Shown: positions 20,500-51,344 of the stretch, one piece after another
Position numbering within the stretch: the first letter of the stretch is position 1
Layout of the letters: each line of letters opens with the position of its first letter
Source: Pelosinus fermentans JBW45
GTDB lineage: Bacteria; Bacillota; Negativicutes; DSM-13327
Assembly: GCF_000271665.2 (NCBI RefSeq)
Contig: NZ_CP010978.1
Coordinates: 1,458,501-1,522,500, forward strand
Reading direction: 5' to 3'
Length of the DNA: 64,000 nt
The notes under the pieces: model-generated
Database searches by the model: none
What the model was told of the DNA's origin: nothing
Seen by the model: only the letters and a program-made list of their open reading frames with translations
Program-made: the position numbers and the translations under genes

Positions 20500-20517
20500 T
20501 TACGGCACGAAAAGAAA

Positions 20518-20565: not shown

Positions 20566-20623
20566 TCTTAATTAAAATATAAGTTGGAGAATATTAATCA
20601 CAAAGAGTTATAAAAAAAGTGAT

Positions 20624-20720: not shown

Positions 20721-20919
20721 AAAATGCTTTATTTTTTAGCTGAGGACAAGTTTATAATATTATTTTTATCTGTTACATTTCATTTTGCAATGAGTCAAGT
20801 GTCTTCGATTGAGAGAATATGCAGGCTTTAGGTCGTACTTCCACAAGCTGTGGAAGTTTAATGTCTAGGTGGAGCGGTAAGTTGCTGTTATAATCAACTT
20901 GTAGCAAGCGAGGTGTAAG

Positions 20920-25058: not shown

Positions 25059-25101
25059 AAAAAACTATATTGAATAATCCTTTTATTCAATATAGTTTTT
25101 T
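25059..25101 (-). terminator. Strong intrinsic terminator between acyltransferase and argJ1
   Basis: Perfect 19-bp stem (25059-25077 with 25083-25101), loop of five bases, with A6/T6 at the stem ends. It lies within the leftward operon, so downstream argJ1 would need read-through, for example by LoaP, or its own promoter. Confidence 0.8.
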
Positions 25102-26386
25102 ATTCCCCCATACACATAACTAATTCATTTAGCATAGTATCAACAAACTGTTCTACAATTACTTTCTTGGTTGTTGACTGATAAAAATTTACAGATAGAC
25201 TCAGAGTGTTATTAAAGATACTGGCTAGCATTACAAGACCTGGTGAAAAGGGTGCCGGCCCTATCATATAACAGTCTAGAATATCTAGAAATCCGAATTT
25301 CGTTGTATCTTTGGTAATAACTCCGACATTTGAGAAGACAGGCATATGTACTTTGTTTTTTATAGTGTAATTTCTGAGTCGATAAATATGAGCATTTGCA
25401 TATTTAAGATTTAATTTTCCAAGTTTTTCTAATTCAAAAGCACTTTTTAAACCAGGCCAATCTTTTTTTATTTTGGTTGTTTCATGCACAATTTTAGCTA
25501 ATGTTTCATTAAATGATTCATTTATATTTTGAGTAGACATAACAATTTGCTTTCCAGAAAAATTACAAATTGGCATTTTCTTATTTGCGGGCAGATATCT
25601 GCGCAAGTTAACTGTTAAATGTATAGATATAGTATTATCTTGTATTTTTGCTATTTTGGAAAGAGATCTATGGAAGCCAGTTAAAAGGATATCATTAGTT
25701 GTAGCTCCATTTTTATGAGCGTAACTTGTAATAGAATTGAGTTGTTTGAAATTCAATTGTCTTAATAAAAATTTTTGTTCTTGACTCTCACCTATAGTAC
25801 AAGGAAATGCTACTGTAGGACTAGGATTAGGTTTATTGCATATCGCGTTAATATCAGCGGTAAGATTAAGAATATGTTCTTGGCTACGATTTGCGTAGAC
25901 ACTGGGTTCTACAATATATGGCTGTTCATAAAATAAATGATTATAAATGGATGACAATAAATTTAGATATTGTTTGAATGCCTCTACATCCGAACAAGTA
26001 TGATTCAATTTTACACAAATTGTGTCGAATTCAGCTCTTAATACTTTTATCTTTATTTGACAGTCGTTCGTAGAATTAAAGGGAGTGCTAATGAAATTTT
26101 GTAATTCGGTTTCATCTTCTTTAGTTTCAATGGTAGAGCACAATTCTGTCTCCTCAATATTATCGTTGCGTTTCCAAACAAGATTGTTATTTTCTTCTAT
26201 TAGGCAGCAACCTAAAATGGGTTCAACATCTAAGGAGATGCGAACAGCTTGTTTTAGCATTGTATCATTTATTCTTCCATTAAGTTTTAAGACGCAATTA
26301 ATCTGATTATTTGTAAAATGCTTACCAGTAAGATAATTACCAATATCTTGGGCGACAGGTGGAAAATAGATAGGTGACTTTTTCAA
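25100..26386 (-). CDS. Stand-alone condensation-domain-like acyltransferase
   Basis: 428 residues resembling NRPS condensation domains and PapA/alcohol-acyltransferase proteins. The catalytic motif HHxxxDG appears as NHTCSDVEAF (second His and Asp kept, Gly replaced), and the latch part shows LTVNLRRYLPANKK and ANVGV-like SNVGVITKD. TTG start behind AAGGAGG at 7 bases. It would join an acyl or aminoacyl thioester (perhaps on ACP1 or ACP2) to an alcohol or amine acceptor. It lies 34 bases after loaP in the same operon. Confidence 0.7.
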   Translation of the reverse strand: MKKSPIYFPPVAQDIGNYLTGKHFTNNQINCVLKLNGRINDTMLKQAVRISLDVEPILGCCLIEENNNLVWKRNDNIEETELCSTIETKEDETELQNFISTPFNSTNDCQIKIKVLRAEFDTICVKLNHTCSDVEAFKQYLNLLSSIYNHLFYEQPYIVEPSVYANRSQEHILNLTADINAICNKPNPSPTVAFPCTIGESQEQKFLLRQLNFKQLNSITSYAHKNGATTNDILLTGFHRSLSKIAKIQDNTISIHLTVNLRRYLPANKKMPICNFSGKQIVMSTQNINESFNETLAKIVHETTKIKKDWPGLKSAFELEKLGKLNLKYANAHIYRLRNYTIKNKVHMPVFSNVGVITKDTTKFGFLDILDCYMIGPAPFSPGLVMLASIFNNTLSLSVNFYQSTTKKVIVEQFVDTMLNELVMCMGE

Positions 26387-26420: not shown

Positions 26421-26924
26421 TTAAACTATTTCTATTCCAACGTCAATTAATTTGGGAGTGTTTAATAAGTTTATTAATATTTTAGCTCTTTTCTTATGCT
26501 TATCAATTCGCTTTACAATTCCTTCTAAATTCTTCAAAGGTCCATTCAAGATGAATATTTTCGAGTTTTTTATATGTATGCGAGAAATTTTTACAATATC
26601 TCCTGATCCTACTAGAGAAAGAATAATATTTATTTCAGAGTCATCTATAGCGGAATAATAGGATCCGTTGCTATTTAGTATTTTTATTATTTTAGGAATT
26701 TTTTTTATTATATTATATATAATATAATTCATATCTGCACAGATAAATACATATCCTGGAAACATTTTTTTTTGAACGAGATGGGCTACACCTTGTCTTT
26801 TCTCTATTAACAATCTTTTGGGTATCAAAGAGTGCAAGGTATTATAATCAAAGTAGGACTGAAGGCATTTTTGTATACCTTCCTCCGCTCCTGTTTTAAC
26901 CCAGAGTACATACCAGTACATCAT
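26421..26924 (-). CDS. loaP: LoaP-type NusG paralog, processive antiterminator
   Basis: 167 residues. NGN domain with YWYVLWVKTGAEEGIQKCLQ and MFPGYVFI, then a C-terminal KOW domain with GPLKNLEGIVKRIDKHKKRA. LoaP proteins bind a leader RNA and keep RNA polymerase moving through terminators in long biosynthetic operons of Firmicutes (established). I choose ATG 26924: the upstream codons to 26984 contain the sequence GAAAGGG that acts as SD and have no SD of their own. The gene diverges from the main operon and begins its own leftward operon. Two repeated leader elements followed by terminators (27478, 58186) are its likely targets. Confidence 0.9.
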   Translation of the reverse strand: MMYWYVLWVKTGAEEGIQKCLQSYFDYNTLHSLIPKRLLIEKRQGVAHLVQKKMFPGYVFICADMNYIIYNIIKKIPKIIKILNSNGSYYSAIDDSEINIILSLVGSGDIVKISRIHIKNSKIFILNGPLKNLEGIVKRIDKHKKRAKILINLLNTPKLIDVGIEIV

Positions 26925-27309
26925 ATAACTATCATCCCTTTCACTGGGCTCAAGGCACAATTCAGAACTGAACTTTACTCTCATAAAACATGTGTACTAT
27001 ATTTAAAGTTACAAATAGTGTGCCATTGAGCACGTAAGTAATTTTTTCAAAAAATGTATGTGATTATGCTGCTTTTTTTCAGAGAAATCGTAGCAACATA
27101 TCAGCAAAAATTATAATTCAACAGGGCACACAGCTTGCGCAGGTGAATGCCAACGTAAAGCTATCTAGACATTTTAAAATTAAGCAGAGTCTATTTTTTA
27201 CAATAAGTCTGGCTGTTTATGAGTATGAAAATTCCAAAATAGTTTATTGTTTGACCACCTCTGTATAAATAATATTTTTACAAAATATGTATTTAAACTT
27301 ATTATAGAA
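26925..27309. other. Upstream region of loaP
   Basis: AT-rich, no credible gene on either strand. It should hold the leftward promoter of loaP; I see no clear consensus. Confidence 0.4.
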
Positions 27310-27373: not shown

Positions 27374-27402
27374 TTGACAGAAATAAATATTTTACTTATT
27401 AT
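27374..27402 (+). promoter_or_regulatory. Probable promoter of main biosynthetic operon
   Basis: TTGACA (27374-27379), 17-bp spacer, TATTAT (27397-27402). The -35 box is part of ATATTGACA, inverted relative to TGTCAATAT at 27324-27332. A second candidate is TTGATG-16-TACAAT at 27432-27459. Confidence 0.5.
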
Positions 27403-27577: not shown

Positions 27578-27658
27578 TGGTTAGAGTATAAAATTGTGCA
27601 TAATGATACAGCAATTATAAGAATAAAAGAATTACAGACATTTAAATTTTGTATCTAA

Positions 27659-27693
27659 ATTGTGGGTAGTATAGGCTGCCCATAATTTTTTTA
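27659..27693 (+). terminator. Intrinsic terminator in the leader of the main operon
   Basis: 11-bp stem ATTGTGGGTAG/CTGCCCATAAT (two G-U pairs) followed by TTTTTTTATTT. It lies before the first gene of the operon, as expected for antitermination control. Confidence 0.75.
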
Positions 27694-27831: not shown

Positions 27832-29340
27832 ATGAGGATCGAGAATTTATTATTAAATAATAAAATTAAAAACAAGGTTTTTTCAATTGTGGATGATTTT
27901 GGAGAATGGGATAGTACTAGCTTATGTAAGAGAGTAATCGCACTAAGAGATGTCTTATTAATTAATGGAGTAAAGCATTTAGACAAGGTTGCAGTTATTT
28001 GTGATAATGGAGCATCATTTATTATTGCAATAATGGGGGCATTAGCTGCTGGTTGTATTGTAGTTCCTATAGATCCTCAATTACCTATTTCTGATGTCTT
28101 TGATATATTGCATGGTAGTGAGACAAGGCGGATGTGTATTTCTGGGGTGAGGTCCGAGGTAAATTACAGCAAAAAAAGAAATGAGGACGTACAGATATTT
28201 TCAGAAAATTTAGGGGAATGGGAAAGTGATGAGACTCTTAGCAAATGTTTTCAAAAAATACAAAATTATACAAGTAAAGAACCCGCATTTATACTTTTTA
28301 GTTCGGGCACATCAGGAACTAGAAAAGGAGTAGTCTTGACACATGATGCCATAAGTACAAATGTAGATGCTATTATCGACTATATGATACCTAAAAGTAA
28401 TGATATTTTCTATATCACTAAATCAATGATACATGCATCAACTCTCGTTGGGGAAGTTTTAGTTGCACTTAAAATTGGAGCAAGAGTTATTGCGCAAAAT
28501 CCTATCGTACCTCTATCAACTACTTTAAAGAGGATTGCCACATTTAGACCTTCTATTATCTTTGTTAATCCTACGATTCTCCGATTATTACTTAAAGCTA
28601 AGAGCAAATATTCGAATGTGGAGAGTATTCGATTGGTGTATGTTAGCGGAGAAGTTGCAGATGGAAAGTTGCTAGCTGAGGCTGAACAATTTTTTTATAA
28701 TGGACAAGTACATAACGTTTATGGTTTAACGGAAGCTGGGCCTAGAGTAGCTGCGCAACGTGTCAACAATAGATATATAAAGCATGGGTCTGTAGGAAAA
28801 CCAATACGTGGTGTTAGTATTGCTATAAAAAATAAAAACGGGGTACGATGCAAGTGTAATGAAATAGGGATGATATACGTGAAGACTAGAAGCGCGATGC
28901 TACAATACTGGAATGATGATGTGGCTACTTGCAGGAAATATTTTAATGGTTGGTTAATGACAGGTGATTTGGGTTATATGGATAATGAAGGTGATTTATT
29001 TATTGTGGGCAGAGCAGATGATATAATAATCCGTGGTGCACATAAGATAGATCCATACCGCGTGGAAAGTATAATAAAACGAATACCTGGAATAGATAGC
29101 TGTATTGTGTTTGGTATTCAAGATCAAATTCAAGGGAATCGTGTTATTTGTATATATCTGAATGATGAAGGTGTATCAGTTGATACTGATACAATTATGA
29201 TAGCCTGCAGGGAGAGCTTAGCGCTTTACGAGATTCCGCAAGAATTATATTCAGTAAAAAAAATACCAACTACATTAGGCGGCAAAGTTTCGAGAAGGTT
29301 AGCTATCTCATTTTATTATAAACACCTGCTGAAAAATTAA
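27832..29340 (+). CDS. AMP-forming acyl/aminoacyl ligase (ANL family)
   Basis: 502 residues. Adenylation motifs: LFSSGTSGTRKG (P-loop, about residue 155), YGLTEAGPR, TGDLGYMDNEGDLFIVGRAD, and C-terminal GGKVSRR with the catalytic Lys. It should activate a carboxylic or amino acid and load it onto ACP1 or CoA. Together with ACP1, two alpha/beta hydrolases and a PLP decarboxylase it resembles the ligase/ACP/hydrolase/decarboxylase set of exosortase-A loci. First gene of the main operon. Confidence 0.9.
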   Translation: MRIENLLLNNKIKNKVFSIVDDFGEWDSTSLCKRVIALRDVLLINGVKHLDKVAVICDNGASFIIAIMGALAAGCIVVPIDPQLPISDVFDILHGSETRRMCISGVRSEVNYSKKRNEDVQIFSENLGEWESDETLSKCFQKIQNYTSKEPAFILFSSGTSGTRKGVVLTHDAISTNVDAIIDYMIPKSNDIFYITKSMIHASTLVGEVLVALKIGARVIAQNPIVPLSTTLKRIATFRPSIIFVNPTILRLLLKAKSKYSNVESIRLVYVSGEVADGKLLAEAEQFFYNGQVHNVYGLTEAGPRVAAQRVNNRYIKHGSVGKPIRGVSIAIKNKNGVRCKCNEIGMIYVKTRSAMLQYWNDDVATCRKYFNGWLMTGDLGYMDNEGDLFIVGRADDIIIRGAHKIDPYRVESIIKRIPGIDSCIVFGIQDQIQGNRVICIYLNDEGVSVDTDTIMIACRESLALYEIPQELYSVKKIPTTLGGKVSRRLAISFYYKHLLKN

Positions 29341-29393
29341 TTAATTAATGGATAAGGATGGTAATCGGCAAAAAAAGTTGGAGGTTAAGAGAT

Positions 29394-30302
29394 ATGGAAA
29401 ATAAAAGATGTCTCGACGCTTCGGTTATTATACCAGTGTATAATCAAGCAGAGTCACTCCAGATTACATTGAATTTTTTTAAATTTCAAAGCTATGATTC
29501 AAAAAAATATGAAATTATAGTAGTTGATGATGGTTCGACTGATGGATTAAGAGACAAAATTAGGGAAGATAAATGGCCTCAATTACCATGTAGCATAAGT
29601 TATATTTATAGTGAAAATAAAGGAAGAGCAGTTGCAAGAAATAAAGGAGCCGCTATAGCTAGGGGAAAAAGGCTAATCTTTTGTGATGCTGATAGATTTC
29701 CAGATCGAGATTATATAAAGAATTATATTGTAAGCAGTTCAGAGTTAAATAAGATTGCTATTGTGGGAAGCCCATGGGATTATTTTGGACATATAAAATA
29801 TTTATTAGGAAATCATTGTGGAAATATTAGCATTATACGGAAATATTCGAGGTTGCCTTTATATTATTTAAAGGTGAAAAATTTATATGACGCCAAAGGT
29901 AGCACAAACTCGGGAATCGCTTGGGCAACTTTTCTTGTTGGTAATTCTTGCGTGAAAGCGGAAGATTTCGAGACAATTGGTGGTTTTGACGAAGATTTTA
30001 ATACCTGGGGTTTTGAGCACTTTGAATTTGCTTTGCGTTTACAAAAAATAGGAGTTAAATTTCGCAATTGTCCTGAAATCTCAAGTTTCCATATACCGCA
30101 TGCAAGAGGGGAGGGACACTATAAATCAGCAATAACAAATAGTATACAATTATTTAAAGCAAAGCATCCGAACTGTAATCTAGATAGCCTCAGAGGTTTT
30201 TTATTTGGAGAAATGTCATTGCAGGATTTTGAGTTACACTTTTGTGGAACGCAAACTACTTACTTAGGAGAAAGTGAATCCATATATTATAATGTAGTTT
30301 AA
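29394..30302 (+). CDS. Glycosyltransferase family 2
   Basis: 302 residues from ATG 29394 behind GGAGG. GT-A fold motifs: SVIIPVYNQAESLQ, VVDDGSTDG, nucleotide/metal motif CDAD, and FNTWGFEHFEFALRL of the galactosyltransferase-like C-terminal part. It transfers a sugar from a nucleotide-sugar donor. In this cluster it suggests a glycosylated product or intermediate. An in-frame TTG/ATG further upstream lacks an SD site. Confidence 0.88.
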   Translation: MENKRCLDASVIIPVYNQAESLQITLNFFKFQSYDSKKYEIIVVDDGSTDGLRDKIREDKWPQLPCSISYIYSENKGRAVARNKGAAIARGKRLIFCDADRFPDRDYIKNYIVSSSELNKIAIVGSPWDYFGHIKYLLGNHCGNISIIRKYSRLPLYYLKVKNLYDAKGSTNSGIAWATFLVGNSCVKAEDFETIGGFDEDFNTWGFEHFEFALRLQKIGVKFRNCPEISSFHIPHARGEGHYKSAITNSIQLFKAKHPNCNLDSLRGFLFGEMSLQDFELHFCGTQTTYLGESESIYYNVV

Positions 30303-30396: not shown

Positions 30397-30660
30397 ATGT
30401 CATTAAAAGAAGTTGTTAATCAATTAGAAAATATAATTAGGGAAGAACTTCGTTTAGGTGAAGGTATGAAAATTACTTATGATACAACATTAGAAGAAAT
30501 TGGTGTTGATTCTATCACTATGATGCAATTATTAGTTTTTATTGAAGAGCGCTTCGGATTTGAATTTGGTGAGGATGCGTTATTACGAGGTAATATGATG
30601 TGTATTCATGATTTGGTAGATTATATTTTACCAAGAATTCAAGAAGATGATAATTGCTAA
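30397..30660 (+). CDS. Acyl carrier protein 1
   Basis: 87 residues, four-helix carrier protein. The phosphopantetheine Ser39 is in GVDSITMMQL. It closely matches ACP2 at 58735 (same MSL-VVNQL opening, LGEG, and EERFGFEF/EEHFQFEF). Probable carrier for substrates of the ligase, decarboxylase, condensation-like enzyme and thioesterase. It is preceded by TTTGGAGG. Confidence 0.93.
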   Translation: MSLKEVVNQLENIIREELRLGEGMKITYDTTLEEIGVDSITMMQLLVFIEERFGFEFGEDALLRGNMMCIHDLVDYILPRIQEDDNC

Positions 30661-30682
30661 ATTTTGATGAAGGGTGTTTTGT

Positions 30683-31507
30683 ATGTTTACACAGTTTTGG
30701 CTAGTCAATAATAAAATATCGCTTGCTGCAGTATCACACCGAAATGATTTAGACAGAAAAAGCGTGTGTGGAGTTGTCCTAATAGCTGGATTTTCGCAGC
30801 CTATGTGTGACGTTGACTATTTTATGAGTAAACTTGCTCGGCAGCTGTCCAATTTAGGAATATTTGTTTTACAAGTAGATCCACGTGGACATGGTGACAG
30901 TGAAGGTAATCTGGAAAATGTGAATTTGTACACTCTTCGCGAAGACTTATCCATTGCCGTTAATTTTGTAGCAGAACAAGTAGGCGATAAGGTATTTTGT
31001 ATAGGACGAGGGCTAAGTGCTACGTTATTTGCTGAGATATCTTCATTAGCTCCAATTCGAGGTGTTGTAGGAATTAGTCCATATTGTATAGAGCCGTCTA
31101 TTGTATCCGAAATATGGGCTAATATTAAACCGGGAATTTTCGATGTTAATGACATTATGCCCGGAACGGATTATAAGTCTTTTAGCAATTTTGATATAGG
31201 GAAAATTGCATTTTGTAATGCTATTGGTGCATTGCCATACAATCTTCATGGACAGGTAATGTCTACGGAGATTTTATTTAATTTATTTGAATATAAACCT
31301 CTCGAAGTACTTAAAAAATGTAAAGATAAATCTCTTTGGTTACTATCTGAAGGTAAGGATAATAATCGTATAGTACATTGGCATCTAGAAAATGAAAAAT
31401 TATATCCTAATCTAAATAATTATGTAAAAAATGCAATAATTAGAGATCCACTTTGGCAATACGATATTATAGAACGTATCTGCAATTGGATTAAGAAATA
31501 TAAGTAG
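30683..31507 (+). CDS. Alpha/beta hydrolase-like protein 1, nucleophile apparently missing
   Basis: 274 residues with an alpha/beta-hydrolase fold (VVLIAGFSQPMCD; VDPRGHGDSEG). The nucleophile elbow reads CIGRGLSAT, so the position of the usual Ser in G-x-S-x-G is Gly. C-terminal His is present in RIVHWHLENEK. It may be a pseudo-enzyme, or bind or transfer acyl groups by another mechanism. Resembles the hydrolase-1 member of exosortase-A loci. It follows ACP1 by 22 bases. Confidence 0.75.
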   Translation: MFTQFWLVNNKISLAAVSHRNDLDRKSVCGVVLIAGFSQPMCDVDYFMSKLARQLSNLGIFVLQVDPRGHGDSEGNLENVNLYTLREDLSIAVNFVAEQVGDKVFCIGRGLSATLFAEISSLAPIRGVVGISPYCIEPSIVSEIWANIKPGIFDVNDIMPGTDYKSFSNFDIGKIAFCNAIGALPYNLHGQVMSTEILFNLFEYKPLEVLKKCKDKSLWLLSEGKDNNRIVHWHLENEKLYPNLNNYVKNAIIRDPLWQYDIIERICNWIKKYK

Positions 31508-31589: not shown

Positions 31590-32402
31590 ATGCAAGTTCC
31601 TGTTCAGATATATGCAAAGGGACGTAATCTAGCTGGAGTCATACATATCCCGTCTGTAAGAGCCATAGGTGCACCGATTATCATAATGTGCTATGGACTA
31701 AATGGCGATCGTGTTGAAGTCCACAGGATGTCAGTTTTTGCGGCTAGGAGAGCTGCGCAGTTAGGTATAACATTTATACGTTTTGACTATAGTGGATTGG
31801 GATTAAGTGATGATGAGTTTTGGCATTCATCTATCAATACAAAAGTTGAGGATGTTTTGGCAGTTATTGATTTTGTGAAAGGATGTTTTCAAACTGAAAA
31901 TCCTACATTAGTATTATTAGGATTTAGTGATGGGGGAAGAGTTGCGTGTCGGATCGCTAATATTTGTAAAGAAGTTTCCGGTTTAGCGATGTGGAATCCT
32001 ATGTTTTCAGCTATGCCACCTATTCTACCAAACTCAGGATTTGTACCTAAATTTGTCCGTGAACCACAGACTAGAGAATTTGTTTATCCATTCTTTGGGC
32101 TTTGGATGGGAAGTGAGTATGTAAGAGACATAAATTCAAGTATGAATATAGAAGAGTTTAATACCTATGATAAGGATAAATTGTTGATTTTTGGAGGAGA
32201 CGATCTTTATTCAAAGGAAACAAGGGAGCAAATAATTAGGGATCCTTCTAACTTGACCACAAATGTTAAGATTATTAGTATTCCGGGGGCTAATCATTTG
32301 TTTAATCGTGTAGAGTGGACGGAACAAGTAATTAGTAAAACGATGGAATGGGTTCTTGAAGTTGGAAGGTTAAAAAAACGAATGAAGGAGGAACTTAATT
32401 AA
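31590..32402 (+). CDS. Alpha/beta hydrolase 2
   Basis: 270 residues, serine hydrolase. Catalytic elbow LLGFSDGGRVA (G-F-S-D-G), acid in LLIFGGDDLYS, His in PGANHLF. SD AAGGAG before the ATG. Possible thioesterase or acyltransferase acting on the ACP-bound or CoA-bound intermediate; partner of hydrolase 1. Confidence 0.85.
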   Translation: MQVPVQIYAKGRNLAGVIHIPSVRAIGAPIIIMCYGLNGDRVEVHRMSVFAARRAAQLGITFIRFDYSGLGLSDDEFWHSSINTKVEDVLAVIDFVKGCFQTENPTLVLLGFSDGGRVACRIANICKEVSGLAMWNPMFSAMPPILPNSGFVPKFVREPQTREFVYPFFGLWMGSEYVRDINSSMNIEEFNTYDKDKLLIFGGDDLYSKETREQIIRDPSNLTTNVKIISIPGANHLFNRVEWTEQVISKTMEWVLEVGRLKKRMKEELN

Positions 32403-32544: not shown

Positions 32545-33333
32545 ATGTGTGCAGTAAATATTGATAGGAAAGAAAATGTTTTAGTTATTGAATCCCTCAG
32601 TGATGGAGTTCTAACGATCCAATTTAATCATCGACATTATAATAACCCTTTTAGTGATTCTATGCAGGATGCTGTAATAAATAGTCTGCAATCTGCTGAA
32701 GAAAACTCAAATGTTAAAGCAATAATATTAACAGGAGGAGTCGGCAGATCCTTTAGTGTTGGCGGGGATTTCAATGAAGTCAAGACACTACAGGGAGGAC
32801 AGGAAGTTGATTTATGGATAGATAGAATAACTAAAATGTACACTGCTTGTCTAAGGGTATCGAAGCCTACTATTGCAGCTGTAGATAATTATGCAATTGG
32901 TATAGGGTTTCAATTGGCTTTAACTTGTGACTATAGAATAATGACAGAGCGCGGTAAATTTATCATGCCAGAGTTAAAGCATGGGATTGCTTGTACCTTA
33001 GGTCAATGCATGCTGGAAAAATCGTTAGGTAGGAATGCTATGTTGGAAATAATTTATGAATGTGAGGCTATTCCGTTACAAAAATGTTTTGATTACAGAT
33101 TGATAAATAAAATCTCATCTCCAGACAAGCTGCTTGAAGACTCACATCTATTAGCGAAGAGATTGGCCAGTTATCCTGAAGTAGCTTTTAGAAAAACTAA
33201 AAAAGTAGTTAATGAAAGTTATGTAGAACAGCTGATAACAGTTACGGAACAAACAAAACTAGCTCATCGGATGACTTTTGGTGACGGAAGAGCACAGCAA
33301 TTTATGCGTAAAGTTGTAGGTGAAACAGTGTGA
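32545..33333 (+). CDS. carB: Carboxymethylproline synthase-like crotonase (CarB/ThnE family)
   Basis: 262 residues of the crotonase fold. CarB joins malonyl-CoA with pyrroline-5-carboxylate/glutamate semialdehyde to give carboxymethylproline, the first committed step to carbapenems (established). Seen here: oxyanion loop SVGGDFNEV with Gly74, Trp91 in LWIDRI, Ile120/Gln123 in AIGIGFQLAL, Glu143 in MPELKHGI and His241 in KLAHRMTF. These fall at CarB positions Gly62, Trp79, Met108, Gln111, Glu131 and His229 (CarB numbering from memory) with one offset of 12, and only Met108 is changed (Ile). It is coupled to the next gene by a GTGA overlap. Ordinary enoyl-CoA hydratase is the alternative but lacks this combination. 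Confidence 0.88.
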   Translation: MCAVNIDRKENVLVIESLSDGVLTIQFNHRHYNNPFSDSMQDAVINSLQSAEENSNVKAIILTGGVGRSFSVGGDFNEVKTLQGGQEVDLWIDRITKMYTACLRVSKPTIAAVDNYAIGIGFQLALTCDYRIMTERGKFIMPELKHGIACTLGQCMLEKSLGRNAMLEIIYECEAIPLQKCFDYRLINKISSPDKLLEDSHLLAKRLASYPEVAFRKTKKVVNESYVEQLITVTEQTKLAHRMTFGDGRAQQFMRKVVGETV

Positions 33334-34691
33334 AGGATACATTGAAGAAAACTATATATATATCATCTAAAAAATTGTCAAAAGAAATTAATTTTTGTAA
33401 AGAGTTTACATATAATGGATTATATGTAGGATATGGTTCAGATTTACAGAAAATTAATGAGAAATGTGAGTCATTAATAATTTCTTTTGAGAAGGGGTGC
33501 ATAGAGGCAGATTCAATACCGAAAAATAATTTTATAATGATAGGTAAGGATAACCTAGTTATAGTTGGCAGTGATATGAATACTCAGGCGATATTTTATA
33601 TAAATATTCCTGAAAAAGGTATATTTGCTGTTTTTAATGATCTGTTTATAGCGAAAGATATATTGCAAGGAATTGGACTAGAAGTAGAATATGATGTAGA
33701 AAAGAATGGTGAGAATTTAACATTTTTTAAGTATGTAAGCCGTTTAAAGCATGGCGAAAAAATTGAAGTGCACTATAATAACAACAATTTGAAAGTAGAA
33801 AAAAATTTGCAGAGTGATATTCTCTTGCAGCCTTCTTGCAGCATGGCACTTGATAAAGCAAAAGAAAGGTTTTATGAAGTTTTATTTAACGCAACTAAAG
33901 AATTAACGAAATGGGACGAGGAAATCTGTATCTCTCTTTCTGGAGGTATTGATTCTGGAACAATTGCGTACATCCTTAAAAAGCTAAATAAAAAAGTGTG
34001 CGCATATACTTTGGGAACAGATTGGGGTAACGAATATAAGGAGGCACAAGAAACGGCAGATTTTCTAGGGATTAATTTAATAAAAATTCATTTGAGTAAC
34101 GAAGAAATTCTGCGGGAAGTACCAAATGTAATAAGGTACTTTGCATTTAAGGATGTCGTGCCAATAGAGGTTGCTTTGGTCGCAGTTTCTCTTTATCAAA
34201 AACTATATAAAGAGATTGGAAAAAAGATGACTTTTGTTACTGGATACGGATCAGACCTCTTGAATGCTGGAATTTACTCTAATTTTAATTACTATTCAGA
34301 ATTAGAAGACCAGATCGCTAATGGCTTACGTAAAACTCAAATTTCTAACGAATTTAGTAATTTATTTGCACTAAATGTTGGCATAAAGACAATACATCCT
34401 TTTTGGCATTCGGATGTCATTAAAGAGGCTCTTAAAATTCCTGTTGAATATAAAGTAAAAGATGGAAAGGACAAATACTTTTTTAGAAGTATGATGGAGG
34501 GGAGACTTCCAGCAAGCGTTGCATGGCGTACTAAAAAAGGCGCTCATCAGGGAACTGGGTTAAGTACCTACTTAAAAGGAGCTCTTGAAAGCTCCTTTTG
34601 CAATAACTACGACAATCAGAATGACTATCAGAGTATAATAAAAAGCATTCATAAAGATATATTTCTTCAAGGAAAATACCCATGGAAATAA
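33330..34691 (+). CDS. carA: Carbapenam/beta-lactam synthetase-like protein (CarA/ThnM/BLS family)
   Basis: 453 residues, asparagine-synthetase fold. CarA adenylates carboxymethylproline and closes the beta-lactam ring (established). Seen: no Cys at position 2, so no glutaminase activity; reduced N-terminal domain; PP-loop SLSGGIDSG (residues 202-210); TGYGSD (304-309); and a C-terminal loop WRTKKGAHQGTG with Lys402 or Lys403 in the place of the catalytic Lys of beta-lactam synthetase, where asparagine synthetase B has none. GTG start overlaps the carB stop. Ordinary AsnB is unlikely because the N-terminal Cys is absent and the protein is short. A hairpin AAAAGGAGCT/AGCTCCTTTT lies inside the gene at 34574-34599. 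Confidence 0.85.
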   Translation: MKDTLKKTIYISSKKLSKEINFCKEFTYNGLYVGYGSDLQKINEKCESLIISFEKGCIEADSIPKNNFIMIGKDNLVIVGSDMNTQAIFYINIPEKGIFAVFNDLFIAKDILQGIGLEVEYDVEKNGENLTFFKYVSRLKHGEKIEVHYNNNNLKVEKNLQSDILLQPSCSMALDKAKERFYEVLFNATKELTKWDEEICISLSGGIDSGTIAYILKKLNKKVCAYTLGTDWGNEYKEAQETADFLGINLIKIHLSNEEILREVPNVIRYFAFKDVVPIEVALVAVSLYQKLYKEIGKKMTFVTGYGSDLLNAGIYSNFNYYSELEDQIANGLRKTQISNEFSNLFALNVGIKTIHPFWHSDVIKEALKIPVEYKVKDGKDKYFFRSMMEGRLPASVAWRTKKGAHQGTGLSTYLKGALESSFCNNYDNQNDYQSIIKSIHKDIFLQGKYPWK

Positions 34692-34956: not shown

Positions 34957-35046
34957 AGTAGATGCTTTAAAAAGATCTATTTCTTCAATTAAAAAGTTTG
35001 GCGCGCAAGATATTTGTTGTGTATTTAACAATAGGAGGGATTGTTT

Positions 35047-36237
35047 ATGGAGAAGAAATGTGTATTGCTAACTTCAGAGTCAGTTACTGAAGGACATCCT
35101 GATAAAATGGCTGATCAAATATCAGATGGAGTATTAGATGCAATTATGGCAAAGGATCCTATGGGACGGGTAGCATGTGAAACTCTTCTTACTACAGGAC
35201 AAGTTCATGTGGTAGGTGAAATTAGCACTACTTGTTATGTAGATATTCCTAAAATTGTGCGTGACACGATAAAAGAAATTGGTTATACGCGAGCAAAATT
35301 CGGTTTTGATGGAGAAACTTGTGGCATATTAGTTTCCATTGGTGAGCAATCGGCGGATATTGCTATGGGGGTAAATAAAGCGTTAGAGGCAAAGAAAGGC
35401 GAAATGGATGAATTTGAAGCAATTGGAGCTGGTGACCAGGGAATGATGTTTGGTTATGCTACCAATGAAACTGCGGAGTATATGCCTTTGACAATATCCT
35501 TAGCACATAAGTTAGCTTATCGTTTAACTGAAGTACGTAAAAACAAAGAAGTGGATTATTTACGTCCTGATGGAAAAACCCAGGTGACAGTTGAATATGA
35601 AGATGGTAAACCTGTGCGTGTTGATACGATAGTTATTGCTGCTCAGCATAGTTCGGAAGTTGATTTAGCAACTATTGAGAAGGATATGATTGAGAAGGTT
35701 ATTGTACCAATTGTTCCGGCGGAGTTATTAGATAAAAATACTAAATATTATATCAATCCAACAGGTCGTTTTGTGGTAGGTGGCCCTCAAGGTGATGCTG
35801 GTTTAACAGGTCGTAAAATTATAGTTGACACTTATGGCGGAATGGCACGTCATGGTGGTGGTGCTTTCTCGGGTAAGGATTGTACAAAAGTTGATCGTTC
35901 TGCTGCTTATGCTGCTCGTTATGTTGCTAAAAATATAGTGGCTGCAGGACTGGCTGATAAATGTGAAATTCAGTTAGCATATGCCATAGGCATTGCCTAT
36001 CCTGTATCTATCATGGTGGAGTCTTTTGGAACTGCTAAAGTAGATGAAGCTTTAATTGCCGAGCTTATTAAAAAGCATTTTGATTTACGTCCAGCTGGTA
36101 TTATAAAGACTTTGGATTTGCGACGTCCAATATATCGTCAAACAGCAGCTTACGGTCATTTTGGTCGCACTGATGTTGATCTTCCATGGGAACGGATAGA
36201 TAAGGCAGAAGAATTGCACAAAGAAGCCAATTTATAA
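35047..36237 (+). CDS. metK: S-adenosylmethionine synthetase
   Basis: 396 residues, complete. Motifs [49 protein letters not shown] and [20 protein letters not shown]. It makes SAM from methionine and ATP. ATG 35047 is 6 bases behind GGAGGG; TTG 35041 is less good. Its location inside the cluster, directly before the radical SAM genes, suggests a dedicated SAM supply. No SAM riboswitch is visible in its short upstream gap. Confidence 0.97.
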
Positions 36238-36332
36238 TTCGAAAAAATAATTTCATAGTTGAAACGTAATTAAAAATTTAATCGACATTCAAGTTAAGTT
36301 TTGAGAAACGTAAGGTAAGGAGGCAATTGGTT

Positions 36333-37433
36333 ATGTTTAATAAATGTGTTTATAAGTTAAATAACGAATATTTGAGAGAAATTCTAAACATCCATTTTGA
36401 TAAGGAAGAAGGGGCGAAATACTGGCTTGAAAGAGAAAAGCAGCTGAAAATTAATACACTTGAAGAAATAAATGATTTTAAAAAATTTAAGCAATACTAT
36501 TCATTTAAAAATAGAAATGAAATGGACAAATATGAAAATGACTTAAGACATAGACAGGTGGAAGATTTTATCCCGTTAAGTGCATCAAAGGGGGATAAGT
36601 GGATATGGACAGCAGAAACAGGAGGAACTACAGGAATTGCTAAACGAGGAACATGGGGAAGTATATATTGGGAGAGTATTTTGAACTTTTCAGATGAGTT
36701 TCTAAACCTTCACTGTGTTCCTAAAAACGAGAACTGGCTATTTATAGGACCTACTGGGCCGCATACGACGGGAAGATTAATGGTCTCAATTGCAGAGAAT
36801 AGAGGTGGTAAAATATTTTGTATCGACATGGATCCTAGAATTGTCAGAACGTATTTGCAAGAGGGGAATGGAGAGGCGGTAAATAAATATATTCAACATA
36901 TATGGGATCAAGTTGATCCTATCATACGATACCAAAATATTGGAGTTTTATTCTGTACATCAAGTCTTTTAGAACTTTTACCTCAATATATGGATATAAA
37001 TTTATTTAAAAATATAAAGGCGGTGCTTCACGCTGGCTTAGCCATGTCTCGTGATACTCATAAGTATTTGCGTGAGAACTTGTTCAAAGGAAAAGCGATA
37101 GTCGGTATATATGGAACTTCGGTGTCTGGAATTAGTTATCAGAAACCATATGAAAAAGAAGATAATTATCATGTTATTTATATACCTAGCCAGCCGTATA
37201 TAGTAATTGACATTATAAATGGAGAGGGGCTTCCGGTTAATTATGGTGAAGAAGGCGAGGTAAGATGTTTTAGATTTACGGAAGATTCTATTATTCCTGG
37301 TTTTATAGAAAGGGATAAAGCTGTGAGAATTAAGCCTTTTGGAAAGTTTGCATCAACGTACAATTGGGATTGGATTTCTGACCCTCATAGTCCGGCAGGT
37401 TTATCCGGACAGAAGATGGAAGGAGTATATTAA
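36333..37433 (+). CDS. LuxE-like acyl-activating (adenylate-forming) enzyme
   Basis: 366 residues of the LuxE/phenylacetate-CoA-ligase-like group. Nucleotide loop TAETGGTTGIAKRG near residue 95-110, VGIYGTSVSG, and C-terminal GEEGEVRCFRF. LuxE activates an acyl group and hands it to the reductase LuxC. Its stop overlaps the LuxC-like start (TAATG), so the two act together. ATG 36333 is chosen, 9 bases behind AAGGAGG. Confidence 0.8.
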   Translation: MFNKCVYKLNNEYLREILNIHFDKEEGAKYWLEREKQLKINTLEEINDFKKFKQYYSFKNRNEMDKYENDLRHRQVEDFIPLSASKGDKWIWTAETGGTTGIAKRGTWGSIYWESILNFSDEFLNLHCVPKNENWLFIGPTGPHTTGRLMVSIAENRGGKIFCIDMDPRIVRTYLQEGNGEAVNKYIQHIWDQVDPIIRYQNIGVLFCTSSLLELLPQYMDINLFKNIKAVLHAGLAMSRDTHKYLRENLFKGKAIVGIYGTSVSGISYQKPYEKEDNYHVIYIPSQPYIVIDIINGEGLPVNYGEEGEVRCFRFTEDSIIPGFIERDKAVRIKPFGKFASTYNWDWISDPHSPAGLSGQKMEGVY

Positions 37434-38842
37434 TGATAAATATTCCTGTAATCATAAATAATGAATGTATAGATACGATAGAATATCAAGGGGTTTATTC
37501 TTTGAAGAATGAGCCCCTTGCTACATTGTCAAATTTCCCTGTTATAAGAATCCGAGAAGTTAAAAATATGAGTGAACAAAATTTTGATAAGATGCGTGCA
37601 ATGCCAGCAAAAGATATTTTTAAAACATTTAAGAAAGCCGCACAAATTTTTAGGGCAATGAACTTTAGTATTAATGGAGTTAACATTAATAAAACAGACT
37701 ATATTAGATTGGTCTCATCCTGTACTGGCTTGCCCCAAAGTCTGATAGAACAAGAAATCGAAGAAATAGCATATATAATGGATAATTTAGAAGGCATTAA
37801 TTCTATGCAAGTTCCTGGAGGTTCGGTGGAAATATTTGATACTAACTGCTATTATATAGAGAATCAAGAAATTGGGTTTTTTCCAGCAGGAAAAAATTTA
37901 ACTATTAAATTACCAGGAAATATTCCGACAATTTGCATTTATTGGTTAATACCGTTGTCACAGAAGAGACCTATTATACTTATTCCTCCGAAAGAAGATC
38001 CGTTTACTCATTTTCTTATATATAATGCAATTAAGTTAGCCGATCCGCTTTTAGCATCGTGCATTAGTTTTTTGCCGTGCAGTGAAAGTGCGATTGGCTA
38101 TTTAGCTAGGATATCTGATCAGCTTATGATTCCTGAAAGCGCAAAGTCATTAATAGCATCATCGAAAGATTATATACAAAAAACTTATTTTATACATTAT
38201 GGCAGAAGCAAATTTATTATTACTGATGATTTTGATGATCATATTATTGATGCAATATATAGAAGAATGACTTGGAATTGCGGCAGAACATGTACAGGGC
38301 TTACTTCAGTAATTTTTAAAGGAGATGCGAACAGACTCGCACATGCTGTGGTAGAGCGAATAAAAAAAGATTGTATAGATATGAATAGAGGTAGTGATAT
38401 AGTACCAATGTTCAGTATGGAAAAAGCGAGACATCTTGATATGATGATTGAGTCTTACCTTCAGAAAGGTGACGCGATTGATGTAACCAAAGAGGTGAGA
38501 GGGGATACTCGTCTTATAAAATGCGGGGATGAAGGATGTTTGCTTCCTACTGTATTATTGGTGAAAAATAAAAAAAGTGAAATCTTCGGATTAGAATTAC
38601 CATTCCCATTTATAACCATTATTGAAGCCGAAAGTGATGAAGAGCTTATAAAGTACGCCCAAAATACCCTTATATTAAGCGTTGCCTCAGAAAACAAAGA
38701 ACTGATTCAGAAATTATGTGTAGAAAGATCAATTATGAAGGTTTTTGGTGGAAAGCATATTGAACGTGGTTATAATTATTATGACCCCCATGAAGGTTAT
38801 ATTGCAGATTTTACATATCAAAAGAAAGCGGTATTATTTTAA
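37433..38842 (+). CDS. LuxC-like acyl reductase (aldehyde-dehydrogenase superfamily)
   Basis: 469 residues. NAD(P)-dependent reduction of an activated acyl group to an aldehyde. Features: LVSSCTGLPQSLIEQEIEEI, GFFPAGKNLTIKLPGNIPTI, and catalytic Cys in NCGRTCTGLTSV. Paired with the LuxE-like enzyme. It could release an ACP-bound chain as an aldehyde or produce a semialdehyde such as glutamate semialdehyde for CarB (inference). No luxAB luciferase genes are present. Confidence 0.85.
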   Translation: MINIPVIINNECIDTIEYQGVYSLKNEPLATLSNFPVIRIREVKNMSEQNFDKMRAMPAKDIFKTFKKAAQIFRAMNFSINGVNINKTDYIRLVSSCTGLPQSLIEQEIEEIAYIMDNLEGINSMQVPGGSVEIFDTNCYYIENQEIGFFPAGKNLTIKLPGNIPTICIYWLIPLSQKRPIILIPPKEDPFTHFLIYNAIKLADPLLASCISFLPCSESAIGYLARISDQLMIPESAKSLIASSKDYIQKTYFIHYGRSKFIITDDFDDHIIDAIYRRMTWNCGRTCTGLTSVIFKGDANRLAHAVVERIKKDCIDMNRGSDIVPMFSMEKARHLDMMIESYLQKGDAIDVTKEVRGDTRLIKCGDEGCLLPTVLLVKNKKSEIFGLELPFPFITIIEAESDEELIKYAQNTLILSVASENKELIQKLCVERSIMKVFGGKHIERGYNYYDPHEGYIADFTYQKKAVLF

Positions 38843-38928: not shown

Positions 38929-40281
38929 GTGAATATTCTATTGGTTTGGCCACCTTCTGCTGATTATTGTATCTTAAATGAAAAATTCAGCTGTTGTGAG
39001 CCACTTGGGCTTGAATACATAGCAGCTCCTCTTTTAAAGGAGTTTACAGTTGACATTGCGGATATGAGATTTGAAAAAAGTATTGAGGATTTATTAAAGA
39101 AAAAGAAATATGATGTTGTGGGCGTTGCCATTCCGTTTACTACAAGTGTTAATGTTTGCAATAGGATGTTGCAGCAAATAAAAGAAAATGATGAAAGGGT
39201 AAAAGTAGTTATCGGTGGACATTATCCTACGGTTACTTTAGACAACATTTATCTTCAGTATGTTGATTATGCCATTATTGGAGAAGGTGTACATTCCTTT
39301 TACGAGTTGGTGAAAGCTATAGAAAATCAAACTTTGATTGATGACGTTAAAGGGATAGCAATTATAGAGGATCAACTAGTCAAGTATACTGATAAAATAA
39401 TTTTTAATACGTTGGATCATTATCCAATTCCTGCAAGAAATTTAGTTTCAAAATATCAAAATAAATATTTTCATGCACATTATACACCAGTTACGTTGAT
39501 GCGATTTTCAGCAGGGTGTCCACATAATTGTACGTTTTGTGTATTGTGGAAATTAACAAATCGCGAATATATAGTGAGAAGCAATGATTTGATTATACAA
39601 GAACTCAAAGGTATCGATTGTGAAAATATATATGTTGTAGATGATGAGGCATTCATAAACGCTCCCAAAATGTACGAGTTGGCACAGAAAATAATCGAAA
39701 AAAATATACGGAAAAGATTTCACATGTATGTTAGAGCAGATACCATTATTAATAATGCGGCATTATTTGAATTGTGGGCTAAGGCTGGATTAGATTCTGT
39801 CTTAATTGGACTTGAATCAATATTTGATGATGAGTTAAAGGGATATAAGAAAAACATAACTAGTGAGATGGCTCATAAATGCGTAGAAATACTTCATAAA
39901 AACAGTATAGAAATAAGAGCGAATTTCATAGTTAAACCAGAATATTCCCGGGAGAATTTCCAAGAACTAAAACAGACAGTTTTTGAGCTTGATATAGATC
40001 TTCCTACTTTTGCAGTATTAACACCTTTTCACGGGACAGATGAATATGAAAAAGTAAAAGACCAATTTATTATTGATAAATTGGAGTTTTTTGACTGTTA
40101 TCATACGTTTCTAAAAACTAAATTATCATTAAAAGATTTCTACCAAGAATTTTCCAATTTATTTAGATCTGCAAAATTAAGAGATAAACGAGAAGAGCAT
40201 GGTACAGTTTTTTATGCAGGCAAAGGACAAGATTTTGAAGAAATGACACAAAAAATGGAGAATTCTTACTTGTATTATTAG
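38929..40281 (+). CDS. B12-binding radical SAM protein
   Basis: 450 residues. An N-terminal cobalamin-binding Rossmann domain (residues 1-140: LLVWPPSADY, VVIGGHYPTVTL, AIIGEGVHSFYEL) precedes a radical SAM barrel with Cys197, Cys201, Cys204 in CPHNCTFC. C-terminal helical region with SLKDFYQEFSNLFRSAK. Such proteins methylate unactivated carbons or cyclise. GTG start behind GGAGAT. It differs from the five PhpK-like paralogs and heads the radical SAM series. Confidence 0.92.
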   Translation: MNILLVWPPSADYCILNEKFSCCEPLGLEYIAAPLLKEFTVDIADMRFEKSIEDLLKKKKYDVVGVAIPFTTSVNVCNRMLQQIKENDERVKVVIGGHYPTVTLDNIYLQYVDYAIIGEGVHSFYELVKAIENQTLIDDVKGIAIIEDQLVKYTDKIIFNTLDHYPIPARNLVSKYQNKYFHAHYTPVTLMRFSAGCPHNCTFCVLWKLTNREYIVRSNDLIIQELKGIDCENIYVVDDEAFINAPKMYELAQKIIEKNIRKRFHMYVRADTIINNAALFELWAKAGLDSVLIGLESIFDDELKGYKKNITSEMAHKCVEILHKNSIEIRANFIVKPEYSRENFQELKQTVFELDIDLPTFAVLTPFHGTDEYEKVKDQFIIDKLEFFDCYHTFLKTKLSLKDFYQEFSNLFRSAKLRDKREEHGTVFYAGKGQDFEEMTQKMENSYLYY

Positions 40282-40296: not shown

Positions 40297-41901
40297 ATGG
40301 ATAAAATAGATTGTTTACTAATTGGTCATAATCAAATTACAGGTTTGAAATGTGAGAGAACTTCAAGGGTTATGTGGGGAAGAAACTCTCAATTTTATAA
40401 AGAAGCCGTAACACTAAGATATATAAAATATGAAGATCAATTATATACTCCTACGCAAATATCAAATAAGTTTACTCAGAAAAAAAATGGAGAAAGTTCA
40501 TTTGAACATTTAAGTTATGAGCCTACATTAAATGGTGCAATAGCTTATTTAGGAAGCTACCTAAATAAATCAGGTTTTACCTTTGATTTTATAAATTGCC
40601 TTAAAAGTGAACAAGATAAGCTTGCATCAATATTAAAAAGAAATGAATTACATGCGGTTGCAATATCTACAAGTATGTATACAACAATATTTCCTATCTT
40701 AGAAGCGATTGCATTTATAAAGAAGCATAATGCTTCAGTAAAAATAGTTATTGGTGGTTCATTTATAGCCAACCAGGTTAGAGAGCAGGAAGAGGCTGAA
40801 TTGCAGCAGATGTTTGGAGTTATAGGCGCGGATGTTTATATTTATAGTAACGAAGGAGAACATACCTTAGTTAAGGTGCTCAGAGCAATAAAGGAAATGT
40901 CACCTTATACAGATATTAATAATATATTTTACAAAGATTTGGGGAAATATTCATTTACTTTTCCAGAGGAAGAGAAAATCGGGTTAGATGATAATCTAAT
41001 AAATTGGAATTTATTTGAAGGAAATCAATATAAATACGTTAATGTCAGAACTACAGTTTCATGTCCTTTTTCTTGTGCTTTTTGTGGTTACCCAAAATAT
41101 GGAGGAAAGTATAGGCAGCTGAGTATTGAAGCATTAGAGAAGCAACTTAACATGATTAGAGAGAATCCAAAGGTTAAGGGTATCTATTTTATCGATGATA
41201 CTTTTAATTTTCCGGCAGAGAGATTCAAAAATATTTTACGAATGATGATAAAAAATAAATATAACTTCAAATGGCATTCCTTTTTTAGATGTCAATATGC
41301 TGATAGAGAAACAGTTGAGTTAATGAAGGAAAGTGGTTGTCAAGTTGTTTATTGTGGAATAGAATCAGCAAACCAAGTAATACTTGATAATATGAACAAA
41401 AATACTACTGTTGAGCAGTATAAAAAGGGTATAAGTCTACTTAATGAATATGGCATTGCGAATATCGCGTCTATCATAATAGGTTTTCCGGGGGAAACTT
41501 ATCAAACGTATTTGGACACTTATAACTTTATTGAAGAGTTGGGGCCTACGTTCTTTAGATCGCATGTGTGGTATGCTGATGCTGAATCCCCAATTTATTC
41601 TAAAAAGAAGTTATACAAATTAGAGGAATCTGGTTACGAATGGAGTCATTCAACAATGGATGCTAAAACAGCTGCGACATTAACAGACCTAATGTTCTTG
41701 AATATAAAAAATTCTGTATATGATTCAGATTATCCAATTGCTTTTGATTTATTAGTTAAGGGATATAGTATTGAGCAGATCAAAAAGTTTATAAATGGGT
41801 TTAATATGTGTATGAAAAAGGGATTAAATGCTCCAATTTTAGCAGAAGCTGATTATCAATACATACAAGAAATGAAAAGTGCATTGGGTTCACTAAATTA
41901 G
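40297..41901 (+). CDS. PhpK-like radical SAM protein 1
   Basis: 534 residues. N-terminal family signature MDKIDCLLIGHNQI and IKYEDQLYTPTQI, a B12-binding-like domain with KIVIGGSFIANQV and GADVYIYSNEGEH, then a radical SAM domain with Cys256, Cys260, Cys263 (CPFSCAFC) and YFIDDTFNFP. The PhpK family contains the P-methyltransferase of phosphinothricin biosynthesis (established), but no phosphonate genes are here, so C-methylation or another radical step is more likely. First of four tandem paralogs. Confidence 0.9.
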   Translation: MDKIDCLLIGHNQITGLKCERTSRVMWGRNSQFYKEAVTLRYIKYEDQLYTPTQISNKFTQKKNGESSFEHLSYEPTLNGAIAYLGSYLNKSGFTFDFINCLKSEQDKLASILKRNELHAVAISTSMYTTIFPILEAIAFIKKHNASVKIVIGGSFIANQVREQEEAELQQMFGVIGADVYIYSNEGEHTLVKVLRAIKEMSPYTDINNIFYKDLGKYSFTFPEEEKIGLDDNLINWNLFEGNQYKYVNVRTTVSCPFSCAFCGYPKYGGKYRQLSIEALEKQLNMIRENPKVKGIYFIDDTFNFPAERFKNILRMMIKNKYNFKWHSFFRCQYADRETVELMKESGCQVVYCGIESANQVILDNMNKNTTVEQYKKGISLLNEYGIANIASIIIGFPGETYQTYLDTYNFIEELGPTFFRSHVWYADAESPIYSKKKLYKLEESGYEWSHSTMDAKTAATLTDLMFLNIKNSVYDSDYPIAFDLLVKGYSIEQIKKFINGFNMCMKKGLNAPILAEADYQYIQEMKSALGSLN

Positions 41902-45230: not shown

Positions 45231-45288
45231 ATATGAATTATTTACATATTGCGAGGAGAATAATAAAGCTGTTATTGGAGAGATGAAA

Positions 45289-51263: not shown

Positions 51264-51344
51264 CGAGTTGAGAGGAAGATGGATTGAAATAGTATTTGAT
51301 TCTTAATTATCAGTAATTTTGAAAAAATTTTGAGAGGATCTATT

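Follow-up and report, generated by a model that had tools for sequence, protein, structure and literature searches.

A genomic island of the strict anaerobe Pelosinus fermentans JBW45 with putative relatives of thienamycin biosynthesis genes

Can a bacterium living without oxygen encode the synthesis of a carbapenem, and how much of a pathway surrounds a CarB/CarA-like gene pair found in such a host? The question is raised by a stretch of 64,000 nucleotides of the Pelosinus fermentans JBW45 genome (assembly GCF_000271665.2, contig NZ_CP010978.1, positions 1,458,501 to 1,522,500, forward strand), called here the window, whose first letter is position 1 of the coordinates given below. The strain, a groundwater bacterium, is presented in PMC4582584 as a strictly anaerobic member of the Negativicutes with 39.5% G+C. 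Its genome consists of one contig of 5,380,816 bases. A preliminary description had proposed that a crotonase gene and an overlapping asparagine-synthetase-like gene of the window form a carbapenam core. The presence of a CarB/CarA-type pair in a Negativicute is supported by trees, but the proposal was too narrow, as homologues of ThnN, ThnO and ThnL are also present. These follow a MetK gene, and their presence points to a thienamycin-type set, not just a carbapenam core. The genomic island carrying them probably encodes an oxygen-independent relative of the biosynthesis of complex, thienamycin-type carbapenems.

The CarB/CarA-type gene pair

Both reading frames are intact on the forward strand, the crotonase gene at 32545..33333 and the synthetase gene at 33330..34691, and they share a four-base overlap (GTGA, 33330-33333) as first described. 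The crotonase resembles carboxymethylproline synthase. Its alignment with CarB (PDB 2a7k) is gapless with a constant offset of +12, so that Gly74, Trp91, Gln123, Glu143 and His241 stand at CarB Gly62, Trp79, Gln111, Glu131 and His229, in agreement with the preliminary description. The exchange of CarB Met108 for Ile120, also announced there, was recovered in the alignment. Met108 forms the oxyanion hole of CarB together with Gly62 (PMC6542682), and its position is occupied by Val, Ile or Leu in the remaining CarB-type sequences too. Trp91 does match Trp79 of CarB but is not exclusive to the family, a Trp being found at this place in 4kd6 and in a hydratase of the same genome (L020).

Considering the best 60 of 192 PDB matches of the crotonase, CarB ranks first with 219 bits, followed by the CarB homologue 5o34 (196 bits), the first generic crotonase reaching 92 bits. 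The protein is 38% identical to ThnE (202 bits), and the aligned letters of 5o34 agree with ThnE translated from the thienamycin region of Streptomyces cattleya (L003). The record of this region carries no annotation, and its gene names were assigned here from gene order and translation. A tree of 21 rows was built with the window protein and seven CarB-type sequences against 13 other members of the crotonase family, namely 11 proteins of the JBW45 and sister genomes, 4kd6 and a 165-residue fragment from a Streptomyces locus (L008). The crotonase falls within the CarB/ThnE clade (support 100/99) and not among the enoyl-CoA hydratases. Inside this clade, it joins CarB 2a7k, its nearest neighbour by tree path, and a Streptomyces decoyicus protein, weakly (80/63).

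The second protein is a CarA/ThnM-type, beta-lactam synthetase-like enzyme of 453 residues, compared with 458 for ThnM in our own translation and 503 for the CarA chain. Its N-terminus reads M-K, and the Cys2 nucleophile of glutaminases is absent, as had been noticed. The PDB ranking places CarA (95 bits) and beta-lactam synthetase (BLS, 81 bits) ahead of Escherichia coli AsnB (44 bits), while the match to ThnM amounts to 30% identity over 247 residues (112 bits). In a tree of synthetase domains with 15 rows, opposing the window protein and nine BLS/CarA-type sequences to five of the AsnB type, the protein belongs to the BLS/CarA clade (97/96) and not to the AsnB-type proteins. It groups there with proteins of Rhodococcus fascians and Acinetobacter indicus and with three Streptomyces proteins (97/92).

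Tyr306 and Glu341 align with the catalytic dyad of CarA and BLS, and are shared with both ThnM proteins, BLS, CarA and the proteins of Streptomyces zagrosensis and Streptomyces sp. B-S-A8, whereas both equivalents are missing in all five AsnB-type rows. In CarA numbering, the dyad and the loop lysine are presumably Tyr345, Glu380 and Lys443. The dyad positions hold Leu/Gln in R. fascians, Met/Leu in A. indicus and Val/Glu in S. decoyicus. The C-terminal Lys loop, put forward earlier as a sign of beta-lactam synthetases, turned out not to be diagnostic because a Lys aligned with Lys402 occurs in the 15 rows, the five AsnB-type ones included; Tyr306 and Glu341 are the discriminating residues. 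Membership of the pair in the CarB and CarA families is strongly supported at the sequence level.

ThnN, ThnO and ThnL homologues and the PhpK-related enzymes

A gene for an S-adenosylmethionine (SAM) synthetase, MetK, lies within the cluster downstream of the pair (35041..36237, forward strand; TIGR01034, 591 bits for a cutoff of 309). The Thn homologues were identified by BLAST at 1e-3 between 15 Thn proteins of S. cattleya and the 31 proteins of the window, a comparison that stops at the window's end. The ThnN homologue (36327..37433, forward), 46% identical to ThnN (389 bits), appears to be an EhpF-type, atypical ANL adenylating enzyme. Indeed, a profile built from ten ThnN-type sequences matches EhpF with 217 bits. 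A structural model derived from the ThnN-type alignment (predicted local distance difference test, pLDDT, 77) also has EhpF as its best match (E 2.5e-26 to 3.4e-24, template modelling score 0.75-0.82), the next protein following at E 3e-13. EhpF is reportedly, from the title of its structure paper, an atypical enzyme of this ANL adenylating class. It acts jointly with a reductase, and the product is an aldehyde. The adjacent gene (37433..38842, forward) codes for an aldehyde-dehydrogenase-type reductase (Pfam Aldedh), 33% identical to ThnO over 382 residues (190 bits) and with no PDB sequence match at 0.01. We infer that ThnN and ThnO act together as a carboxylate reductase. That the pair uses glutamate would be a guess, consistent with the co-substrate of CarB.

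The use of ThnN/ThnO as a marker of carbapenems only was rejected, as distant pairs exist with no CarA/CarB match. Such pairs are carried by five of six planctomycete loci and by two high-GC genomes of the host phylum. ThnN is alone in the sixth planctomycete locus and in two gammaproteobacterial loci, and the end of a contig cuts ThnO in one of the planctomycete loci. The loci from planctomycete metagenome-assembled genomes and the two loci of the same phylum may perhaps represent a general carboxylate-reductase pair.

The ThnL homologue (38929..40281, forward) combines B12-binding and Radical_SAM domains and is 39% identical to ThnL (369 bits). It clusters with ThnL at 100/99 and retains the radical-SAM CxxxCxxC motif. 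ThnL is designated as a thioether-forming enzyme of the thienamycin pathway in PMC13331322, and ThnK as a methylase in reviews.

Eight further B12 radical-SAM proteins of the island are paralogues related to PhpK. Four of them follow the ThnL homologue, at 40297..41901 (543.9 bits against TIGR04479, the PhpK model), 41915..43519 (541), 43620..45230 (550.7) and 45283..46914 (534.9), and the fifth is found at 59303..60835 (554.9), all on the forward strand; the last three are encoded beyond the window in the adjoining stretch (L031:5370-10219; 534.3, 562.8 and 513.7 bits). Proteins 1-5 are mutually 45-56% identical. For all eight, TIGR04479 is the best NCBIfam match, over nearly the full length. 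They form their own clade (100/98), separate from ThnK, ThnP and ThnL. With the first paralogue as query, tblastn against plasmids matched 112 records, none covering 80% of it. Phosphonate genes were not noticed in the island, although no search was aimed at them. Upstream of paralogues 6-8 (L031:3710-5301), a family 2 glycosyltransferase occurs, 54% identical to one encoded in the window, as well as a GNAT-like protein named by eye and with no NCBIfam match.

The CarA-like protein and, at E 1e-60, the PhpK-related proteins were each found in one of 380 genomes of the class, that of JBW45 for the CarA-like protein. The phylum was searched through samples of 388-398 genomes. PhpK-related proteins were present in one of 398 (E 1e-50), the ThnN profile matched three of 398, with no CarA/CarB match nearby in the other two, and the CarB profile matched two of 388. 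The other CarB-profile holder (G405) was discarded as a more distant crotonase, with 34% identity to ThnE (113 bits) and no CarA-like match in the 3.7 kb examined. In these searches, three candidates were scored per genome for PhpK-related proteins, up to four for the CarA-like protein and the ThnN profile, and up to six for the CarB profile. A scan of genome contigs with the CarA-like protein as sole query found no relative. The tblastn search of plasmids with this protein matched 45 records; the comparators, among them the thienamycin region of S. cattleya (L003), were drawn from eight of these. A scan of named genomes for ThnN, based on two short patterns, gave 11 loci, with at least 42% identity in three Streptomyces only. 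One of the three is a thn-like cluster (L008) in which ThnE was not seen in the stretch examined, and the two others have ThnE, ThnM, ThnN, ThnO and ArgJ. The open-access literature searched here yielded nothing on carbapenem biosynthesis in Negativicutes; papers joining Pelosinus and carbapenem dealt with other subjects, judged from titles and abstract starts, and broader open-access searches gave no title on carbapenem genes in Negativicutes.

Island borders, accessory genes and resistance determinants

The G+C content is 29-37% from 24 to 60 kb of the window, against 39-49% over its first 22 kb. When a 38-kb stretch of the sister genome G071 was compared (matches of at least 200 bases), about 48.6 kb had no counterpart there: the matches end at window position 23139 and restart at the window-equivalent position 71738, the island thus extending beyond the window. 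The order of the right-hand matches indicates that part of the island flank is duplicated. A direct repeat of 2.1 kb flanks the island, with its left copy at 18775..20916 (forward) and its right copy at L031:11401-13527 (89.8% identity). This repeat has one long match in each of four sister genomes (G071, G072, G073 and G077) and short matches only in three others. Uptake of a circular molecule via homologous recombination would explain the duplicated flanks. The repeat region (18775-20916 and L031:10810-13527) is a PepSY-type gene region, and TonB-receptor-like and AraC-like fragments stand beside the repeat on the right of the island, all named by eye. Also by eye, three related AraC-type regulators were seen near TonB-dependent-receptor-like genes at 1972-4100 and 17053-18057. 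Neither Rfam models (gathering thresholds) nor a tRNA scan gave a match in the window.

Three genes at the left of the island are on the reverse strand. They encode an ArgJ protein (23805..25010; NF003802, 428 bits for a cutoff of 351), a condensation-domain-like acyltransferase (25100..26386; Pfam Condensation, E 1.4e-8) and a LoaP antiterminator (26421..26984; NF033641, 202.4 bits, above the cutoff of 125). LoaP is tied to antibiotic operons, those of difficidin and macrolactin, in PMC12691694. The leader of the main operon includes on the forward strand a promoter-like site (27374..27402) with 11 of 12 matches, in a scan near chance (57 sites versus 50.3 in shuffles). It also contains a terminator-like hairpin (27657..27688, forward) of 14 pairs followed by a T run, a possible LoaP target (5 sites versus 4.1 in shuffles). 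A simple scan for a UNCG hairpin in the leader (TNCG loop closed by C-G, stem of at least 5) found none.

All the genes that follow are on the forward strand. Upstream of the crotonase gene are those of an AMP-forming acyl/aminoacyl ligase (27832..29340; Pfam AMP-binding, E 1.2e-54), a family 2 glycosyltransferase (29358..30302; Pfam, E 4.5e-24), an acyl carrier protein (ACP; 30397..30660; Pfam PP-binding) and two alpha/beta hydrolases, one TIGR03101-like (30674..31507; 40 bits, cutoff 203) and one TIGR03100-like (31590..32402; 62 bits, cutoff 168). A pyridoxal phosphate-dependent decarboxylase is encoded after the fourth PhpK-related gene (46968..48236; TIGR03099-like, 350 bits, cutoff 478). 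The ligase, the two hydrolases and the decarboxylase (27832-32402 and 46968-48236) resemble the exosortase-A-associated set TIGR03098/TIGR03101/TIGR03100/TIGR03099, each below its cutoff, and the ACP adjoins them. The decarboxylase gene is followed by those of an MGT/EryCIII-type glycosyltransferase (48233..49462, below cutoff), an HlyD-type periplasmic adaptor (50067..51263, below cutoffs), an ABC exporter matching MsbA-type models below their cutoffs (51330..53096), a second exporter (53084..54847), identified from its 33% identity to the first, and a type II thioesterase (54910..55638; Pfam Thioesterase, E 3.8e-41). A short ProB-like protein of 189 residues comes next (55754..56323); it matches positions 1-166 of the 363 of TIGR01027 with 91.5 bits for a cutoff of 186 and is probably degenerate. 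Its gene is possibly a degenerate glutamate 5-kinase gene left over from precursor supply. A second ArgJ, 58% identical to the first, is encoded at 56706..57917 (NF003802, 424.5 bits, same cutoff of 351), and a second ACP, 62% identical to the first, at 58717..58995. A shared origin of ArgJ among loci with CarB/CarA-type genes was rejected, as the island ArgJs group with the third ArgJ of the host (100/100).

The right part of the window contains a class D beta-lactamase-like gene (60981..61805), whose product has the STFK, SVV, YGN and KTG motifs and scores 243.8 bits against a class D model with a cutoff of 250. It is followed by genes for a BlaI-like repressor (61863..62246; NF012168, 152.7 bits, cutoff 180) and for a BlaR1 sensor that continues past the window (62287..64000; NF000326, 583 bits, cutoff 400). 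A second class D gene comes after this set, all inside the island, and a fourth class D match of the genome is distant from it. Class D or BlaR1-type matches occur in six of eight genomes of the genus, JBW45 included. Two of these genomes (G074 and G076), with no CarA-like match, have a class D gene 73% identical beside a frame of BlaR1 length. The value of the beta-lactamases as proof of beta-lactam production is weakened by such relatives, which hold class D genes without the cluster.

Competing readings and likeness to known clusters

The anaerobic, thienamycin-type reading rests on the occurrence on one strand of CarB-, CarA-, ThnN-, ThnO- and ThnL-type genes with eight PhpK-related paralogues in the same island, on the strictly anaerobic host and on the absence of any match to the oxygenases ThnG and ThnQ among the window proteins, among which ThnI, ThnJ and ThnS are also unmatched. 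A carbapenam is a likely product, and the island appears to have adapted to anaerobic life or to have been derived for it. In the proposed pathway, the ThnN-like enzyme would adenylate a carboxylate, most likely glutamate, and the ThnO-like reductase would convert it into the aldehyde, here glutamate semialdehyde/pyrroline-5-carboxylate. Addition of malonyl-CoA by the CarB-like enzyme would then give carboxymethylproline, and the CarA-like enzyme would close the beta-lactam with ATP, yielding the carbapenam. The ThnL-like enzyme could form the C2 thioether. Some PhpK-related enzymes would take the place of ThnK/ThnP and methylate the ring or a side chain, the additional MetK supplying their SAM. 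Another acyl or sugar moiety is probably assembled and joined on by the ligase, carrier proteins, decarboxylase, hydrolases and glycosyltransferases. The HlyD/ABC proteins would export the product, and LoaP would allow the polymerase to read through the long operon. A bolder version holds that the strict anaerobe makes a complex carbapenem wholly without oxygen, the ThnL-type enzyme and the eight PhpK-related ones, some as C-methylases, replacing ThnK/ThnP and the oxygenases and leading to a heavily alkylated, glycosylated beta-lactam; it has slightly less than an even chance of being right.

Several observations weigh against the thienamycin-type reading. Orthologues of the C6 methylase ThnK and of ThnP are missing among the 31 window proteins, in which radical-SAM matches are weak (32.7-34.7 bits for ThnK and 67-84 for ThnP), and so are matches to the side-chain enzymes ThnR, ThnH and ThnT. 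All eight paralogues, with 513.7-562.8 bits, stay under the TIGR04479 cutoff of 600, and the named reaction of this family is P-methylation. The CarA-like protein has diverged, as seen from its modest identity to ThnM and from its long branch (1.57). The ThnN/ThnO pair alone is no marker of carbapenems because of the distant pairs already mentioned, and the beta-lactamases are weak evidence for self-resistance because relatives devoid of the cluster carry class D genes.

The CarB/CarA pair could instead make another beta-lactam or a beta-amino acid, from another aldehyde or acyl-CoA, as may be the case for the small loci on plasmids of R. fascians and A. indicus, with CarB-/CarA-type proteins, an AMP ligase and ArgJ. 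The common occurrence of ligase and ArgJ, the grouping of the CarA-like protein with those of these two loci and the ligase/ACP/decarboxylase set, which suggests unusual building blocks, speak for such a product. It is nevertheless unlikely, since the Tyr-Glu dyad lost in these loci is retained in the window, a carbapenam substrate is suggested by the homologues of ThnN, ThnO and ThnL, and the island ArgJs group apart from those of the two loci. The chances are slimmer that no beta-lactam is made, the cluster being silent, in decay or turned to another use. In favour of this are the short ProB-like gene, far under its cutoff, and the signs that the island was acquired, its flanks being duplicated; selection cannot be measured as no other holder of the cluster was found. 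On the other hand, the five Thn-type frames are intact and have lengths near those of their Thn counterparts as translated here (262 for 294 residues in ThnE, 453 for 458 in ThnM, 368 for 381 in ThnN, 469 for 471 in ThnO and 450 for 474 in ThnL). The catalytic residues checked are kept in the crotonase and the synthetase, as is CxxxCxxC in the ThnL type. That the two proteins are an enoyl-CoA hydratase of the ordinary kind and an asparagine synthetase, neighbours by chance, is hardly credible: generic Pfam and NCBIfam models do match both proteins, but the idea is contradicted by both trees and the residue tests, and ThnN, ThnO and ThnL homologues come after a MetK.

With the thienamycin-type reading, the known range of complex-carbapenem genes would come to include the Bacillota and anaerobic metabolism. 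Thienamycin, known from oxygen-breathing Streptomyces, is the parent compound of the clinical carbapenems. Its C5 epimerisation and desaturation are described as unclear, and the thn cluster as having no close CarC homologue, in PMC6097109. A distant cluster from an anaerobe that keeps ThnE, ThnM, ThnN, ThnO and ThnL, with no ThnG or ThnQ match in the compared part, indicates likely core genes and makes this question testable. If the wholly oxygen-free version is true, these five would be the minimal set for a complex carbapenem, and whatever inverts C5 and introduces the double bond would belong either to these five or to the paralogues. The eight B12 radical-SAM paralogues are candidates for new alkylation chemistry, and the link of ThnN to EhpF-type adenylation suggests what ThnN and ThnO may do together.

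Among known systems, EhpF of D-alanylgriseoluteic acid biosynthesis is like the ThnN type in sequence and fold but belongs to a different pathway, and the P-methyltransferase family of PhpK provides the best match of the eight paralogues, yet none reaches its curated cutoff. The A. indicus plasmid (NZ_CP044456.1, L007) gathers a CarB-type protein, a CarA-type protein with Met/Leu at the dyad, a TauD-type dioxygenase, an AMP ligase and ArgJ. A plasmid of S. decoyicus (NZ_CP108348.1, L005, 6656-16708) carries, downstream of DAHP synthase and TrpC genes, CarA-/CarB-type genes with a TauD-type oxygenase, AMP ligases and a nonribosomal peptide synthetase-type gene. In S. zagrosensis and Streptomyces sp. 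B-S-A8 (L009 and L010), CarB-, CarA-, ThnN- and ThnO-type proteins and ArgJ lie within about 11 kb, but BLAST gave no match for ThnL, ThnK or ThnP in the 21 kb examined of each. The car cluster of Pectobacterium (CarA-CarB-CarC) likewise has a CarB-type crotonase overlapping a CarA-type synthetase. No TauD-type oxygenase domain of the 2-oxoglutarate-dependent CarC type was seen in the Pfam-scanned window proteins, which are not every protein of the island. The island has in addition ThnN, ThnO and ThnL homologues, of which, to our knowledge, the car pathway is devoid. Compared with the thn cluster of S. cattleya, the part of the island in the window is without a ThnK/ThnP orthologue or a match to ThnG, ThnQ, ThnR, ThnH or ThnT, whereas the eight PhpK-related enzymes, LoaP, ArgJ, MetK, the ACP/ligase/decarboxylase set, the glycosyltransferases and the class D beta-lactamases are present in the island and not in thn. 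Common to both are the homologues of ThnE, ThnM, ThnN, ThnO and ThnL.

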